This document shows positions 26,820-44,533 of a stretch of DNA of 64,000 bases, piece by piece (position 1 is the stretch's first letter; each line of letters starts with the position of its first letter). The translations under genes were made by a program, and so were the position numbers. The stretch lies in contig JADBYK010000028.1 of NCBI GenBank assembly GCA_020403045.1, positions 1-64,000 of the forward strand. The letters are read 5' to 3'. The notes under the pieces were generated by a model. The model ran no database searches, was not told the origin of the DNA, and worked only from the letters and a program-made list of their open reading frames with translations. The stretch comes from Cytophagales bacterium (GTDB taxonomy: Bacteria; Bacteroidota; Bacteroidia; Cytophagales; Cyclobacteriaceae).

Positions 26820-27422
26820 TCATTTTTGATGGCGCTGTCTAAGCACTTTCACAACGTCTTGAAGTGACGTGTTTTTTGCGGTTAACAGAACCAAGTAGTG
26901 ATACATCAGGTCGGCCGCCTCACCCAGGAACAGTTCTTTATTGCTATCCTTCGCCTCAATCACCAACTCTACGGCCTCTTCGCCCACTTTTTGGGCTACT
27001 TTATTGATACCTGAACTAAGCAGTTGATTGGTGTATGAGTTTTCTTTCGGATTTTGTTTCCTCTCGTTAATAATTGCTTCGAGAAATTCTACTCCGCCAG
27101 TTTCATTCTTTTCATTAAAGCACGTATCTGCACCTGTGTGGCAAGACGGTCCCTTGGGATTCACTTTAAATAACATGGTGTCTTGATCACAATCAACGAT
27201 TACCTCATTCAAAAAGAGATAATTTCCTGATGTTTCGCCCTTCGTCCATAGGCGCTGTTTAGTGCGGCTAAAGAATGTGAGTTTTTTCTCTGAAAGTGTT
27301 TTATTCAAAGCCTCTTCATTCATGTAGCCAAGCATAAGCACTTTTGAAGTAGAGGCATCCTGCACTATACATGGAATCAGCCCATTTGTCTTCTTGAAAT
27401 CTAGTTTGGATACATCGATCAT
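26820..27422 (-). CDS. hisIE: Bifunctional phosphoribosyl-AMP cyclohydrolase / phosphoribosyl-ATP pyrophosphatase
   Basis: GYMNEEALNKTL, DQDTMLFKVNPKGPSCHTGADTCF, KVGEEAVELVIEAKD. Confidence 0.97.
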   Translation of the reverse strand: MIDVSKLDFKKTNGLIPCIVQDASTSKVLMLGYMNEEALNKTLSEKKLTFFSRTKQRLWTKGETSGNYLFLNEVIVDCDQDTMLFKVNPKGPSCHTGADTCFNEKNETGGVEFLEAIINERKQNPKENSYTNQLLSSGINKVAQKVGEEAVELVIEAKDSNKELFLGEAADLMYHYLVLLTAKNTSLQDVVKVLRQRHQK

Positions 27423-34192: not shown

Positions 34193-34227
34193 AAACAAAA
34201 AAGGCTTACCGATGTTGGTAAGCCTTT
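34193..34227 (-). terminator. his attenuator intrinsic terminator
   Basis: Minus strand AAAGGCTTACC AACATC GGTAAGCCTTT TTTG: 11-bp stem with T run, between leader peptide and hisG. Confidence 0.9.
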
Positions 34228-34247
34228 CTTAAGTTTTTATTGTAAAA

Positions 34248-34316
34248 TCAAAACATAAAGCCAACCAATAAGCCTGCAGCTTGATGGTGGTGATGGATAT
34301 TTTGAGTGTTGTTCAT
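34248..34316 (-). CDS. hisL: his operon leader peptide MNNTQNIHHHHQAAGLLVGFMF*
   Basis: 23-codon ORF with CAT-CAC-CAC-CAT (4 His) directly upstream of an intrinsic terminator and hisG. Confidence 0.9.
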   Translation of the reverse strand: MNNTQNIHHHHQAAGLLVGFMF

Positions 34317-34443
34317 GCGTTAATGTGGAGCAAATAAAGAGATTCCTTGCAATTATTCAAAGGTGTTGCCTAAAAAGTTATAGTCATTTCAGTAAGCCAG
34401 GATGAAACAACTGCTAGCAAAACCTGTTTAGATTGTCGTATTT

Positions 34444-35472
34444 TTGTTTGTTATGATGCGTTTAATCCCATTAGTATGCCTATTTACCGTGCTCTCTTGC
34501 TCGGATTCAAAAGAGGCACGTTTGCAGCAATTTTTGCTAAAGGGCAACCTGGCCACAAAACAGCGTAGTTTTGATCAGGCTGCCTATTATTTTGGTGAGG
34601 CGATACGGGTAGAGCCTTGCTATGCCGATGCATGGAACAACCTGGGAACTGTCTATTTCGAACAAGGTAGATTTGAATTGGCGATCGAGAAGTACACGAA
34701 AGCGATCGAGTGCCAGCCAGGTTTTCTGAATGCACTATTGAATCGTGCCAACACCGCCTATGAATTGAAAGAGTATTACAAAGCTATCGAAGACTTAGAT
34801 AGAGTTGCCGCTATAAAACCGGATACTGCTTTGGTCTATTTTACCAAAGGGTTGGTGTTTACGAAAATGCGTAAGTTCGATAACGCGCTGGACGCATTTG
34901 CTAAATCAATCCAAATGGATCCAACAAATATGGATTACAAAGTGAATCACTCTATTGTGCATTATTATCGAAAGGACTTTGATTTAGCAAAATTGGAGTT
35001 GGAGAAATTGGCTGAAACGAAGAAAGACGAGCCCAATATTTACAACACACTCTCACTCATCGAAACGGAAAAGGGCAACTATCAAGAAGCATTGAAAATG
35101 GTCAACAAAGCTATCGAGTTGGATACCAAGCAATCCTATTTTCTTAACAACCGGGGTTTTATTTTTCTCAGTTTGAATGAGATGGAAAAAGCAGAAGCCG
35201 ACATCAACGAGAGTATTTCTGAAGATCCTTATAATGCCTGGGCGTACCGAAACAAAGGCGTGTTTTATTTGATGAAGGGCGACTATCCATCAGCAGAGCG
35301 TTTGTTGAAACAATCGCTAGATATGGATAATTTTGTGGACAAGATCTATTTCTATTTGGGTATGGCTTACTTGAAGAATGGAAAGACAGCCGTAGCTTGC
35401 AATTCATTTAAAAAATCGGAGGAGCTAGGCGATAAGATGATGACTACCGATTTGGTTAAGGCTTGCAAGTGA
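34444..35472 (+). CDS. TPR-repeat lipoprotein-like protein
   Basis: Repeated TPR signatures (AWNNLGTVYFEQGRFELAIEKYTKAIE etc.); LSCSDS lipobox-like N-terminus. Confidence 0.93.
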   Translation: MFVMMRLIPLVCLFTVLSCSDSKEARLQQFLLKGNLATKQRSFDQAAYYFGEAIRVEPCYADAWNNLGTVYFEQGRFELAIEKYTKAIECQPGFLNALLNRANTAYELKEYYKAIEDLDRVAAIKPDTALVYFTKGLVFTKMRKFDNALDAFAKSIQMDPTNMDYKVNHSIVHYYRKDFDLAKLELEKLAETKKDEPNIYNTLSLIETEKGNYQEALKMVNKAIELDTKQSYFLNNRGFIFLSLNEMEKAEADINESISEDPYNAWAYRNKGVFYLMKGDYPSAERLLKQSLDMDNFVDKIYFYLGMAYLKNGKTAVACNSFKKSEELGDKMMTTDLVKACK

Positions 35473-39802: not shown

Positions 39803-42800
39803 CTATCTTTTCACAATCAGTTTTGTTGATTTGCCAGATTGACCAACCTTGATGATATAAGTGCCCTCTGCTGCCTGATCTAGTGAGACAGAAACTTTCC
39901 ATTGGCCTTTAGGAATGTTGACGTTGCCTTGTTGTCTACCCAATAAATCGAAGAAGCGCACAGGTGTATCGACCTCTACTCTCGCTGGCAATGCGACAGT
40001 GACTTGAGCCATAGCCGGATTTGGAAATACTGAGAGCTCGCTCACGTTAGGATCATCAGACGGTTCACTGCCAGCCGGGGTTTCTTTGCGTGGGCAAAAT
40101 TGATCAAAGCAAGGACAAATGCCGTACATGGCACAAGGATCAGGGTTAGGGTCACAATACTGCTCGTACACGGTTGCTTGCGCAGTACTTTGGCAGCCAT
40201 TCAGGTATGCGGTAACATAGTAGGTGCCGCCTGAGTACACATTGATTGACTGTGTACCCCCCTCACCTGTTGACCACGAAAAATAGGGCGCAGATGAGAC
40301 AGCAGTTAGTGAAGTAGAACTTCCCGAACAAAAGGTAGCACCATCTCCAACTATGTAGACCGATGGCTTCTGATTTATATTGACAGTTAATGTATTACTC
40401 TGTGAGCTGCACAAGGTAATATTGTCAGTCACTTCAACAACATAAAAACCTCCATAGCTTGTTGTGTAAGACGAACTTGTCGCACCGCTTATGTAAGTTT
40501 GATAATTTCTCCACCGATAAGAGTAGTTGGGATTAAATGGCGTTGACAATGACACAGATGAGCCCGAACACAGTGTGACAGGCCCGTAAATGTTTGATGC
40601 TGCAGCTGTGAGGCTCGCGACAGGTGGGGGATTTACAGTAACCGTGGTAGGCGCACTGGCCGCACTCATGCATCCATTGGCATTGGTAACTCTAACTGTG
40701 TAATTGCCTCCACTGCTTACAGTGATGCTCTGAGTGGTTGCGCCCGTTGACCACAGGTAGCTTGAACCACTGTTGGTAGTTAACGTTACAGAGCCTCCCT
40801 GGCAAAATGTGATTGCGCCAGAGGCCGTTATGGTTGCGGTTGGTGAAGGGAAGATCGTAACAGTTGTCGCTGCGCTAGTGGCAGAGCAACCATTGACATT
40901 TGTAACTCGAACTGTGTAATTACCTGCAGTGCCAACAGTTATACTCTGCGTGGTTGCACCCGTGGACCACAAGTAACTAGCCCCAGCAGAAGCAGTAAGA
41001 ATTACCGACCCACCTGGACAGAACGAGGTTGCGCCAGAGGCCGTGATGGTGGCAGTTGGCAGAGGGTTGACTATAACAGTTGTTGCTGAGCTAGTGGCAG
41101 AGCAACCATTGACATTTGTAACTCGAACTGTGTAATTACCTGCTGTGCCAACAGTTATACTTTGTGTGGTTGCACCTGTAGACCACAGATAACTTGAACC
41201 AGTGCTGGCAGTTAACGTTACAGAGCCACCTTGACAAAATGTGGTTGCGCCAGAGGCTGAGATGGTGGCAGTTGGAAAAGGATTTACAATCAAGCTTTGG
41301 GTGGCGGTTGCAGGGCTATACGTTCCATTTCCCGCCTGACTTGCAGTAATTGTTACCGTGCCTGCTGCAAGAGTGGTCACTACGTTTCCTGCCACTGAGG
41401 CAATCGTAGGATTAGAACTAGTATAACTGATAGCCAAACCGGAGCTTGCAGTTGCTGTTAGGTTGACGGTTGCGTTGATGCACGCGCTTGGTAGAGGGTT
41501 GAAGGTAACGGTTTGACTAGCTCGCGGTTCATGCCTTAAAACCGATAGTGTGTTGCTACCATAATTCGTCACTGCAAGGTCAGCCTTTCCATCCCCGTCC
41601 AAATCACCGATGGCTAATGAATAGGGACCAGAACCTGTTGCAAAGTCTGTTTTCGCTTCATAGCTGACTGTACCGGGCGTTCCGGTGTTGCGGAATACCG
41701 ATACCGTGTTGCTATTTATATTTGCCACCGCCAGGTCAGCCTTGCCGTCCCCGTCCAGGTCACCGATGGCCACTGATCCAGGAGCTAAGCCTGTTTCAAA
41801 ATCTCTTTTCGCTGCATAGCTAATCGTCCCGGGCATTCCCGTGTTGCGGAAAACCGATACCGTGCTGATACCACCATTCGCCACCGCCAGGTCAGCCTTT
41901 CCATCCCCGTCTAAATCACCGATGGCTAATGATTTAGGGCCAGAACCTGTTGCAAAATCTATTTTTGCTGCATAACTGATCGTCCCGGGCGTTCCCGTGT
42001 TGCGCAAAACTGATATCGTGTTACCATCAAAGTTCGCTACCGCCAAGTCAGCCTTTGAATCCCCGTCCAAATCACCGATGGCTAATGAAACAGGACCAAG
42101 ACCTGTTGCGAAATCAATTTTCGCTGCATAGCTAATCGTCCCGGGCATTCCCGTGTTACGGAAAATCGATAGCGTACCATTGCCACCGTTCGCCACTGCC
42201 AAGTCAGCCCTTCCATCCCCGTCTAAATCACCGATGGCAACTGAAGAAGGAAAAGCACTTATTGCAAAATCTATTTTCGCTGCATAACTAATCGCCCCGG
42301 GCGTTCCGGTGTTACGGAAAACTGATAGCGTGTAACTATTATAATTCGTCACCGCCAAGTCAGCCTTTCCGTCCCCGTCCAAATCACCGATGGTTACTGA
42401 TTTAGGACCAGCACCCGTTGCAAAATCAATTTTCGCTGCATAGCTGATCGTACTGGTCGTTCCAGTGTTGCGGAAAACCGATAAAGTGTTGCTACTAAAA
42501 TTCGTCATCGCCAAGTCAGCCTTTCCATCCCCGTCTAAATCCCCGATAGCTATTGAACCAGGACTCGCTCCGGTTGCAAAATCTACTTTAGGAAGAAAAC
42601 TAGTTACATCCACTTTTCCCCACCCGGGGTAAGTAGTTGAAAATGGAAATTTGGAATACCCCACCAGTCCACTCACCAGTACAGTAATGGGCTGATAAGT
42701 TGCCCCTGTGGGTACGGTAACGGTTAGTTGTGTGGCGGTTGCAGCCGTTACCGTAGCTCGCATAGCTCCAAAATAAACGATGTTGTTGGCAGGGGTGGAA

Positions 42801-44533
42801 TTAAACCCGGTGCCGGTGATCGTTACAGCGGTGCCTACGGGACCGCTGGTTGGGGTGAAGCCGGTTATTTGCGGCAGCGGACCAACGAATAGAAGTTGCT
42901 GTACCGCACTTGCTGGAAGAAACGTAGAATTTCCTCCTTGAAAGGCTGTTATCAAAGTATACCCTCTTCCTACTATAGTAACTGTATTGCCTGTGATGGT
43001 GGCCACAGTTGTATTGCTGCTCATGTATGAAATAGGTAGTCCGGATGACGAAGAAGCAGTAAGTGTGAAGGGTGAATCTCCTAATGCTCTATTGGGCAAT
43101 GGATTAAACGTAATGGTTTGACTAGGTCGCGGTTCATGCCATAAAAAAGACAGCGTATTGCCATTCATTACCGCCAGGTCTGCCTTTCCATCCCCGTCCA
43201 AATCACCGATGGCTAATGAAACAGGACCAAGACCTGTTGCGAAATCTATTTTCGCTGCATAGCTAATCGTCCCGGGCGTTCCCGTGTTGCGGAAAACCGA
43301 TACCGTGCTGCTACCACCATTCGTCACCGCCAGGTCAGCTTTTCCATCCCCATCCAAATCACCGATAGCTAATGAATTAGGATCAGAATCTGCTGCGAAG
43401 TCTATTTTCGCTGCATAGCTAATAGTCCCGGGCGTTCCCGTGTTTCGCAAAACCGATATTGTACTGCTACCACTATTAGCCACCGCCAGGTCGGCCTTTC
43501 CATCCCCGTCTAAATCACCGATGGCCACTCGATGCGCATAAAAATTTGTTGCAAAATCTATTTTCGCTGCATAGCTAATCGTCCCAGACGTTCCCGTGTT
43601 GCGCAAAACCGATATTCTATTGCTACCACTACTAGCCACCGCCAGGTCGGCCTTTCCATCACCGTCCAAATCACCGATGCCAACTGAAGCGGGATATAAA
43701 CCTGTTGGAAAATCTATTTTCGCTGCATAGCTAATCGTCCCAGGCGTTCCCGTGTTGCGGAAAACTGACACTGTATTATGACTGTAATTTGTCACCGCCA
43801 AATCAGTTCTTCCATCCTGGTCCAAATCACCGAAGGCTATTGAACGAGGACTAGAACCTGTTGCAAAATCTATTTTCGCTGCATAGCTAATCGCTCCGGG
43901 CGTTCCGGTGTTACGAAAAACCGATATCGTGTTGCTACCGCGATTCGTCACCGCCAGGTCGGCCTTTCCATCCCCATCCAAATCACCGATGGCTACTGAA
44001 GCGGGATATAAACCTGTTGGAAAATTTATTTGTGCTGCATAACTAATTACACCAGATGTTCCCGTGTTACGGAAAATCGACACTACATTAATACTAGTTG
44101 TCACCGCTAAGTCAGCCTTTCCATCTCCATCCAAATCACCGATGGCTAATGAAGTATGAAATGTACCTGTTGCAACATCTACCTTTGGAAGAAAACTAGT
44201 TGCATCCACTTTTCCCCACCCAGGATAAGTGGTTGAGAAGGGAAATTTAGAATACCCCACCAGTCCATTCACCAGTAAAGTTATGGGTTGATAGGTTGCC
44301 CCTATGGGTACGGCAACATTTAGTTGTGTAGCCGTTGCAGTCGTTACTGCAGCTCGGGTAGCTCCAAAGTAAACGATATTGTTGACCGGGGTAGAACTAA
44401 ACCCGGTGCCGCTGATGGTGACAGAGGTGCCTACCGGGCCGCTGGTGGGGGTGAAGCTTGTGATTACTGGCTGTGATAGCACCATAGTGCTAAAAACTAA
44501 CATTAAAGATAAAGGCAGTAAAAGTGTTTTCAT
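39803..44533 (-). CDS. Giant secreted protein: 2x (IPT/TIG + seven FG-GAP/VCBS repeats + Big-type Ig), three near-identical Ig/SprB-like repeats, T9SS type A sorting domain
   Basis: Signal peptide; 14 copies of ~52-aa IDFATG..IGDLDGDGKADLAV..RNTGTPGTISYAAK; ITSFTPTSGPVGTSVTISGTGF; C-terminal VFPNPAMAQVTVALP...GTYIIKVGQSGKSTKLIVKR. Confidence 0.93.
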   Translation of the reverse strand: MKTLLLPLSLMLVFSTMVLSQPVITSFTPTSGPVGTSVTISGTGFSSTPVNNIVYFGATRAAVTTATATQLNVAVPIGATYQPITLLVNGLVGYSKFPFSTTYPGWGKVDATSFLPKVDVATGTFHTSLAIGDLDGDGKADLAVTTSINVVSIFRNTGTSGVISYAAQINFPTGLYPASVAIGDLDGDGKADLAVTNRGSNTISVFRNTGTPGAISYAAKIDFATGSSPRSIAFGDLDQDGRTDLAVTNYSHNTVSVFRNTGTPGTISYAAKIDFPTGLYPASVGIGDLDGDGKADLAVASSGSNRISVLRNTGTSGTISYAAKIDFATNFYAHRVAIGDLDGDGKADLAVANSGSSTISVLRNTGTPGTISYAAKIDFAADSDPNSLAIGDLDGDGKADLAVTNGGSSTVSVFRNTGTPGTISYAAKIDFATGLGPVSLAIGDLDGDGKADLAVMNGNTLSFLWHEPRPSQTITFNPLPNRALGDSPFTLTASSSSGLPISYMSSNTTVATITGNTVTIVGRGYTLITAFQGGNSTFLPASAVQQLLFVGPLPQITGFTPTSGPVGTAVTITGTGFNSTPANNIVYFGAMRATVTAATATQLTVTVPTGATYQPITVLVSGLVGYSKFPFSTTYPGWGKVDVTSFLPKVDFATGASPGSIAIGDLDGDGKADLAMTNFSSNTLSVFRNTGTTSTISYAAKIDFATGAGPKSVTIGDLDGDGKADLAVTNYNSYTLSVFRNTGTPGAISYAAKIDFAISAFPSSVAIGDLDGDGRADLAVANGGNGTLSIFRNTGMPGTISYAAKIDFATGLGPVSLAIGDLDGDSKADLAVANFDGNTISVLRNTGTPGTISYAAKIDFATGSGPKSLAIGDLDGDGKADLAVANGGISTVSVFRNTGMPGTISYAAKRDFETGLAPGSVAIGDLDGDGKADLAVANINSNTVSVFRNTGTPGTVSYEAKTDFATGSGPYSLAIGDLDGDGKADLAVTNYGSNTLSVLRHEPRASQTVTFNPLPSACINATVNLTATASSGLAISYTSSNPTIASVAGNVVTTLAAGTVTITASQAGNGTYSPATATQSLIVNPFPTATISASGATTFCQGGSVTLTASTGSSYLWSTGATTQSITVGTAGNYTVRVTNVNGCSATSSATTVIVNPLPTATITASGATSFCPGGSVILTASAGASYLWSTGATTQSITVGTAGNYTVRVTNVNGCSATSAATTVTIFPSPTATITASGAITFCQGGSVTLTTNSGSSYLWSTGATTQSITVSSGGNYTVRVTNANGCMSAASAPTTVTVNPPPVASLTAAASNIYGPVTLCSGSSVSLSTPFNPNYSYRWRNYQTYISGATSSSYTTSYGGFYVVEVTDNITLCSSQSNTLTVNINQKPSVYIVGDGATFCSGSSTSLTAVSSAPYFSWSTGEGGTQSINVYSGGTYYVTAYLNGCQSTAQATVYEQYCDPNPDPCAMYGICPCFDQFCPRKETPAGSEPSDDPNVSELSVFPNPAMAQVTVALPARVEVDTPVRFFDLLGRQQGNVNIPKGQWKVSVSLDQAAEGTYIIKVGQSGKSTKLIVKR
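40620..41290 (-). repeat. Three tandem ~72-aa Ig/SprB-like repeats (DNA level)
   Basis: TATI(S/T)ASGATTFCQGGSVTLTASTGSSYLWSTGATTQSITVGTAGNYTVRVTNVNGCSATS x3. Confidence 0.85.
41510..42600 (-). repeat. Seven tandem ~156-bp FG-GAP repeats (propeller block 2)
   Basis: Seven copies of the IGDLDGDGKADLAV unit, approximate bounds. Confidence 0.9.
43110..44190 (-). repeat. Seven tandem ~156-bp FG-GAP repeats (propeller block 1)
   Basis: Seven copies of the IGDLDGDGKADLAV unit, approximate bounds. Confidence 0.9.

Follow-up and report, generated by a model that had tools for sequence, protein, structure and literature searches.

The window (the whole 64-kb stretch of DNA analysed here) carries on its minus strand an entire his operon in the order GDCBHAF-IE, preceded by a predicted promoter, a short ORF containing consecutive His codons and a hairpin followed by a T-rich tail. 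All the features below lie on the minus strand, and regions 1 to 4 are numbered in the order in which they would be transcribed.

34361-34331, minus: predicted Bacteroidetes-type promoter, TTTG, a 19-nt spacer and TTTATTTG; read from the sequence, spacing kept in relatives
34316-34248, minus: 22-codon ORF for the leader peptide, MNNTQNIHHHHQAAGLLVGFMF, ending in TGA; read from the sequence, conserved in relatives
34305-34297, minus: outer arm of region 1, TCAAAATAT, partner 34256-34248; from folding
34295-34284, minus: His codons CAT CAC CAC CAT, the putative regulatory codons and also the inner part of region 1; from the sequence
34268-34248, minus: region 2, the distal leader, pairing with region 3 and with region 1
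34256-34248, minus: ATGTTTTGA (codons Met Phe stop), partner of the outer arm of region 1; from folding
34227-34200, minus: terminator hairpin 3:4, 11 bp, AAAGGCTTACC-AACATC-GGTAAGCCTTT with the tail TTTGTTT; from sequence and covariation
34226-34215, minus: region 3, AAGGCT-T-ACCAA, which pairs with region 2 in the antiterminator and also forms the 5' arm of the terminator; from duplex prediction
34149-33289, minus: hisG, ATP phosphoribosyltransferase, the first structural gene; TIGR00070 match
33232-26820, minus: hisD, hisC, hisB (bifunctional), hisH, hisA, hisF and a hisIE-like gene; NCBIfam matches for hisD to hisF, and the ORF list
26820-27422, minus: the hisIE-like gene, named by reading its translation, without a family search

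The leader had been noticed in an earlier sequence-only reading as a minus-strand peptide gene with four His codons, and this proved correct to the base (34316-34248). The 11-bp hairpin and T run that the same reading had placed about 20 nt past the leader and ahead of hisG were also recovered: arms AAAGGCTTACC (34227-34217) and GGTAAGCCTTT (34210-34200) enclose the loop AACATC, with 20 nt between the leader stop codon and the hairpin and 50 nt between the hairpin end and the hisG ATG (34149). A role for this hairpin as terminator of the upstream neighbour, which encodes a TPR protein (34444-35472), was ruled out because that gene is divergent. Four consecutive CAY codons (CAYCAYCAYCAY) occur once in the 64-kb window versus 0.06 times expected from dinucleotide shuffles. 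When the 4.02-Mb genome to which the window belongs was searched with a covariance model of the relatives, in which the window sequence was itself included, the locus scored 101.5 bits and the runner-up 39.9. A search of this genome for an ATG followed by the His codon pattern with the frame ignored gave 22 matches versus 9 in the reversed control, and is uninformative on its own.

The predicted promoter consists of TTTG at 34361-34358 and TTTATTTG at 34338-34331, a variant of TAnnTTTG, and the spacer is 19 nt long in 41 of the 51 relatives that have a recognisable -7 box. Since the -7 box has been mapped to positions -12 to -5 in Flavobacterium psychrophilum (PMC9723704), transcription is predicted to start near 34326, leaving a 5' UTR of approximately 10 nt in the window (group median, 6 nt). 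A sigma-70 promoter scan returned nothing on the relevant strand. In three leaders of the Chryseolinea group (L070, L072 and L088) the -7 box is TTCTTAGC or TTATTAGC, not TnnTTTG, and the remainder of the leader is normal. Elsewhere in the window, a minus-strand gene at 39803-44533 encodes a secreted-looking protein of 1576 aa which, judged by eye, contains numerous nearly identical internal repeats of the GDLDGDGKADLAV type and, at the C-terminus, a stretch resembling a type IX secretion sorting domain.

Conservation in Cytophagales relatives

Upstream regions were drawn via hisG from 39 whole genomes and 46 named records, the latter being Cytophagales MAGs (filed under Cyclobacteriaceae or Flammeovirgaceae) and species of Chryseolinea, Chryseosolibacter and Pseudochryseolinea; removal of duplicates gave 58 distinct Cytophagales hisG leaders with a hairpin. 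Of the genomes of the same genus, 22 had a readable hisG start, and each of these carries both leader and hairpin. His codons occur throughout the 58 leaders, as a run of 3-6 in 54 of them, and the hairpin begins 17-24 nt past the leader stop in 53. The two features on which the sequence-only reading had staked its case, the His codons and the hairpin, are thus both kept in these relatives. A covariance model run over 292 genomes of the order gave matches above 60 bits only within the same family; the many matches of approximately 35-52 bits were attributed to generic terminators of AT-rich sequence and left out, because their E-values look too optimistic.

Leader peptide residues beyond the His run vary among the relatives, and the RNA pairings are conserved. 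Three leaders end soon after the His run (L009, HHHHASAC*; L011, HHHHALAC*; L016, HHVHALAC*), and the distal GGCAGG and ATGTTYTGA persist downstream of the early stop. Because these leaders stop early and retain it, the ATGTTYTGA stretch appears to be kept for pairing and not for coding; as read from these sequences, part of the RNA structure in the three falls outside the ORF.

Helices 1:2, 2:3 and 3:4

Three helices were evaluated on the alignment of the 58 leaders. For the terminator (3:4), 97.3% of cells are paired and changes on both sides are found in 7 of 12 pairs. For the antiterminator (2:3), in which the distal leader binds the terminator's 5' arm and loop, and for which covariation in relatives was a check already suggested by the sequence-only reading, 81.7% of cells are paired versus 30-53% when the strands are slid, and the covariation score was reached by only 1 of 500 shuffles. 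In the window this helix joins TTGGT-T-GGCTTT (34268-34257) to AAGGCT-T-ACCAA (34226-34215); the GGTTGG/CCAAC antiterminator proposed earlier can form, and is only part of this longer pairing. The window's own 2:3 helix has an energy of -12.2 kcal/mol and is borderline against shuffles (p ~0.054), so that the case for the antiterminator rests on the relatives, the two closest of which form a fuller and stronger helix, TTGTTGGTTGGCTTTA/AAAGGCTTACCAACAT (-16.7 kcal/mol). Swapping 2:3 partners inside the close group gave a modest gap of 1.1-1.4 kcal/mol, owing to the near-invariance of region 3 in that group; the matter was settled by the class-wide set described below.

The sequence-only reading was borne out in proposing alternative structures as far as the antiterminator is concerned, and it overlooked the hairpin 1:2, which links codons before and in the His run with the end of the leader ORF. 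Its strands are TCAAAACAT/ATGTTTTGA outside and GCCAC/GTGGC inside. In the window the outer helix is 34305-34297/34256-34248, with its outer arm involving the leader codons TQNI, and the inner helix pairs CCACCA, within the His codons, with TGGTTGG; on the region 2 side, TTGGTTGG and ATGTTTTGA are the segments that pair with region 1. On the fixed alignment 71.8% of cells are paired versus 36-45% when slid. Because the register of 1:2 shifts between groups, the helix of each sequence was also handled separately, and the mean duplex energy was -17.5 kcal/mol for matched strands versus -13.7 kcal/mol for swapped ones, the observed value being reached in 0 of 20000 permutations. Compensatory changes are seen in L016 (TCAGAAC/GTTCTGA), L006 (CAAAGC/GCTTTG) and L014 (ACGCAT/ATGCGT). 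RNAalifold used alone found the terminator and no other helix.

For a class-wide set we took 45 leaders with a terminator, from approximately 20 families, out of the wider collection described in the next section. Matched strands again paired better than swapped ones, both for 2:3 (-14.0 versus -10.1 kcal/mol) and for 1:2 (-15.5 versus -11.5 kcal/mol), with 0 of 10000 permutations reaching the observed value in either case. In controls of equal composition with one strand reversed, the gaps shrank to 0.6 kcal/mol (2:3; 387/10000) and 0.3 kcal/mol (1:2), and regions 1 and 3 paired in the same swap test showed no effect. The permutation tests ignore tree structure, and the class-wide set was drawn from those approximately 20 families. 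Sequence comparison shows 1:2, 2:3 and 3:4 to be conserved and covarying, together with the ORF, the hairpin and the operon. Region 2 is common to 1:2 and 2:3, and region 3 to 2:3 and 3:4, in keeping with how a classical attenuator is laid out; the sequences support helices that are mutually exclusive.

Distribution across Bacteroidota and a second leader type

A further set of 136 hisG upstream regions comprised 77 of the family and 59 of the class. His-rich ORFs were defined by an ATG start, a length of 8-45 codons and either three or more His in a row or four or more His of which two are adjacent. Such an ORF was found at 114 of the 136 regions and at none on the opposite strand; the next amino acid after His in the same search was Leu, with 47. 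Outside the class, with GTG starts also allowed, a His-rich ORF was present at 18 of 40 regions versus 0 of 40 on the reverse strand, and none was found in those of the 40 whose HisG is of the GLPKGSL kind. In regions from other classes of the phylum (L267-L278 and L283-L290), ORFs such as HTAHHPHHGIHHGHHRVH stand before hisG with the His codons spaced and not in one run. Judged by these sequences, His-rich leaders at hisG appear to be ancient in much of the phylum; for the terminator design, the analysis covered the class.

Among the other genera of this family, most have a hisG leader peptide that ends in ...HHxHHSS*, with the His codons leading directly into a hairpin whose loop contains the stop codon, most commonly TTCCTCC-TAA-GGAGGAA. 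A conserved ACATATCGCC motif (8.7 of 10 matches on average) lies 29-32 nt past the beginning of the last His-His pair in most leaders of this second type, and a GGCTGT..ACAGCC hairpin is often present; no intrinsic (T-run) terminator was found before hisG. Examples are L194, L197, L202, L206, L209, L211, L213, L215, L188, L195 and L025, together with approximately 20 more hisG upstream regions. We tentatively suggest, at somewhat less than even odds, that most Bacteroidia and some other Bacteroidota classes have His-rich hisG leaders, and that these exist in two or more designs, one with a terminator and the other with a stop-codon hairpin and ACATATCGCC, the second perhaps coupling His-tRNA supply to hisG differently.

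Probable attenuation, its alternatives and known systems

The locus in the window is best read as a ribosome-mediated transcription attenuator of the his/trp type that would control the his operon, a reading to which we give a probability of about 0.92. The sequence and its covariation provide a leader ORF enriched in codons for the operon's product amino acid and a terminator before the first structural gene. An antiterminator sharing the 5' arm of the terminator is evident from the comparison and borderline in the window sequence alone, and the protector hairpin contains the regulatory codons and is incompatible with the antiterminator. Covariation thereby backs terminator, antiterminator and protector alike, in support of the classical his attenuation architecture named in the sequence-only reading. 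From this we infer promoter use, leader translation, stalling, termination and a response to histidine. A ribosome would start translating the leader peptide very near the transcript's 5' end. With charged His-tRNA it would reach the stop codon and cover region 2, or depart and let 1:2 form; with region 2 covered or held in 1:2, region 3 would pair with region 4 and transcription would end before hisG. When His-tRNA is scarce, the ribosome would stall at the four His codons and cover region 1, region 2 would bind region 3 as it is transcribed, no terminator would form and the operon would be read.

Compatible with attenuation is an additional action in trans of the terminated leader RNA or of the peptide; for the trp leader peptide of Sinorhizobium meliloti, action of this kind has been reported (PMC7298713). 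Attenuation here would yield both a short terminated RNA and a peptide, and on this analogy such action has a slim chance; outside the His run and the residues needed for pairing, the peptide is unconserved. Slimmer still is the chance that leader translation exposes or hides the hisG start and so acts on translation: leader and structure do sit in the 5' region of hisG, and relatives of the second type lack a terminator, but the window hairpin, which ends 50 nt upstream of the hisG ATG, has a T run and the make-up of an intrinsic terminator, and the supported pairings leave the hisG start uninvolved. Least probable is a functional small protein, for example a metal binder, beside an unrelated terminator: the ORF is widely conserved and His runs can bind metal, but the residues outside that run vary and the RNA pairings do not, and three leaders stop early.

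A transcription attenuator of this kind requires a ribosome close behind RNA polymerase. Shine-Dalgarno sequences are reported not to be used in Bacteroidia (PMC9723704). Because covarying attenuator structures occur across Bacteroidia, with the leader AUG predicted to lie a few nt from the 5' end, we infer that translation is coupled to transcription in these transcripts, at least in their early part. The mechanism is an ordinary one, here usefully extended, and for the single genome the attenuator is an expected device; it would provide a ready reporter of histidine starvation for the phylum, a way to control the his operon that needs no DNA-binding regulator, and an RNA family missing from Rfam.

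A search of the locus against Rfam at gathering and permissive thresholds found no family that fits, and His_leader (RF00514) scored 22 bits (E 0.19) versus a gathering score of 49. The enterobacterial his leader has seven His codons, and the leaders here have four or five. Both combine a short His-run peptide with protector, antiterminator and terminator hairpins upstream of hisG, whereas the window has a predicted Bacteroidetes-type promoter and a predicted 5' UTR of few nt; the locus would work like the proteobacterial family without being a member of it. In the same phylum and class and at the same gene, a transcriptome study of F. psychrophilum reported that Flavobacteriaceae have, ahead of hisG, a structured and conserved 5' element without an Rfam match and, stated separately, strong clues for leader-peptide attenuation before amino-acid operons (PMC9723704). 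The likeness to that element is one of description, since the main text gives no hisG structure or leader sequence; in our set, His-run leaders with terminators occur at hisG across the class. The 5' UTRs of B. thetaiotaomicron contain sORFs likened to leader peptides (PMC7366714). Our search, which covered open-access literature, found no detailed account of a Bacteroidetes His attenuator. Leader attenuators of the same mechanism have been predicted comparatively in other phyla, namely Actinobacteria and Proteobacteria (PMC1262725), and a similar comparative survey is that of Lopatovskaya 2010 (as cited in PMC4833913). The locus is very likely to be a histidine attenuator of the classical sort, a type of switch that is known but has been little described in this phylum.
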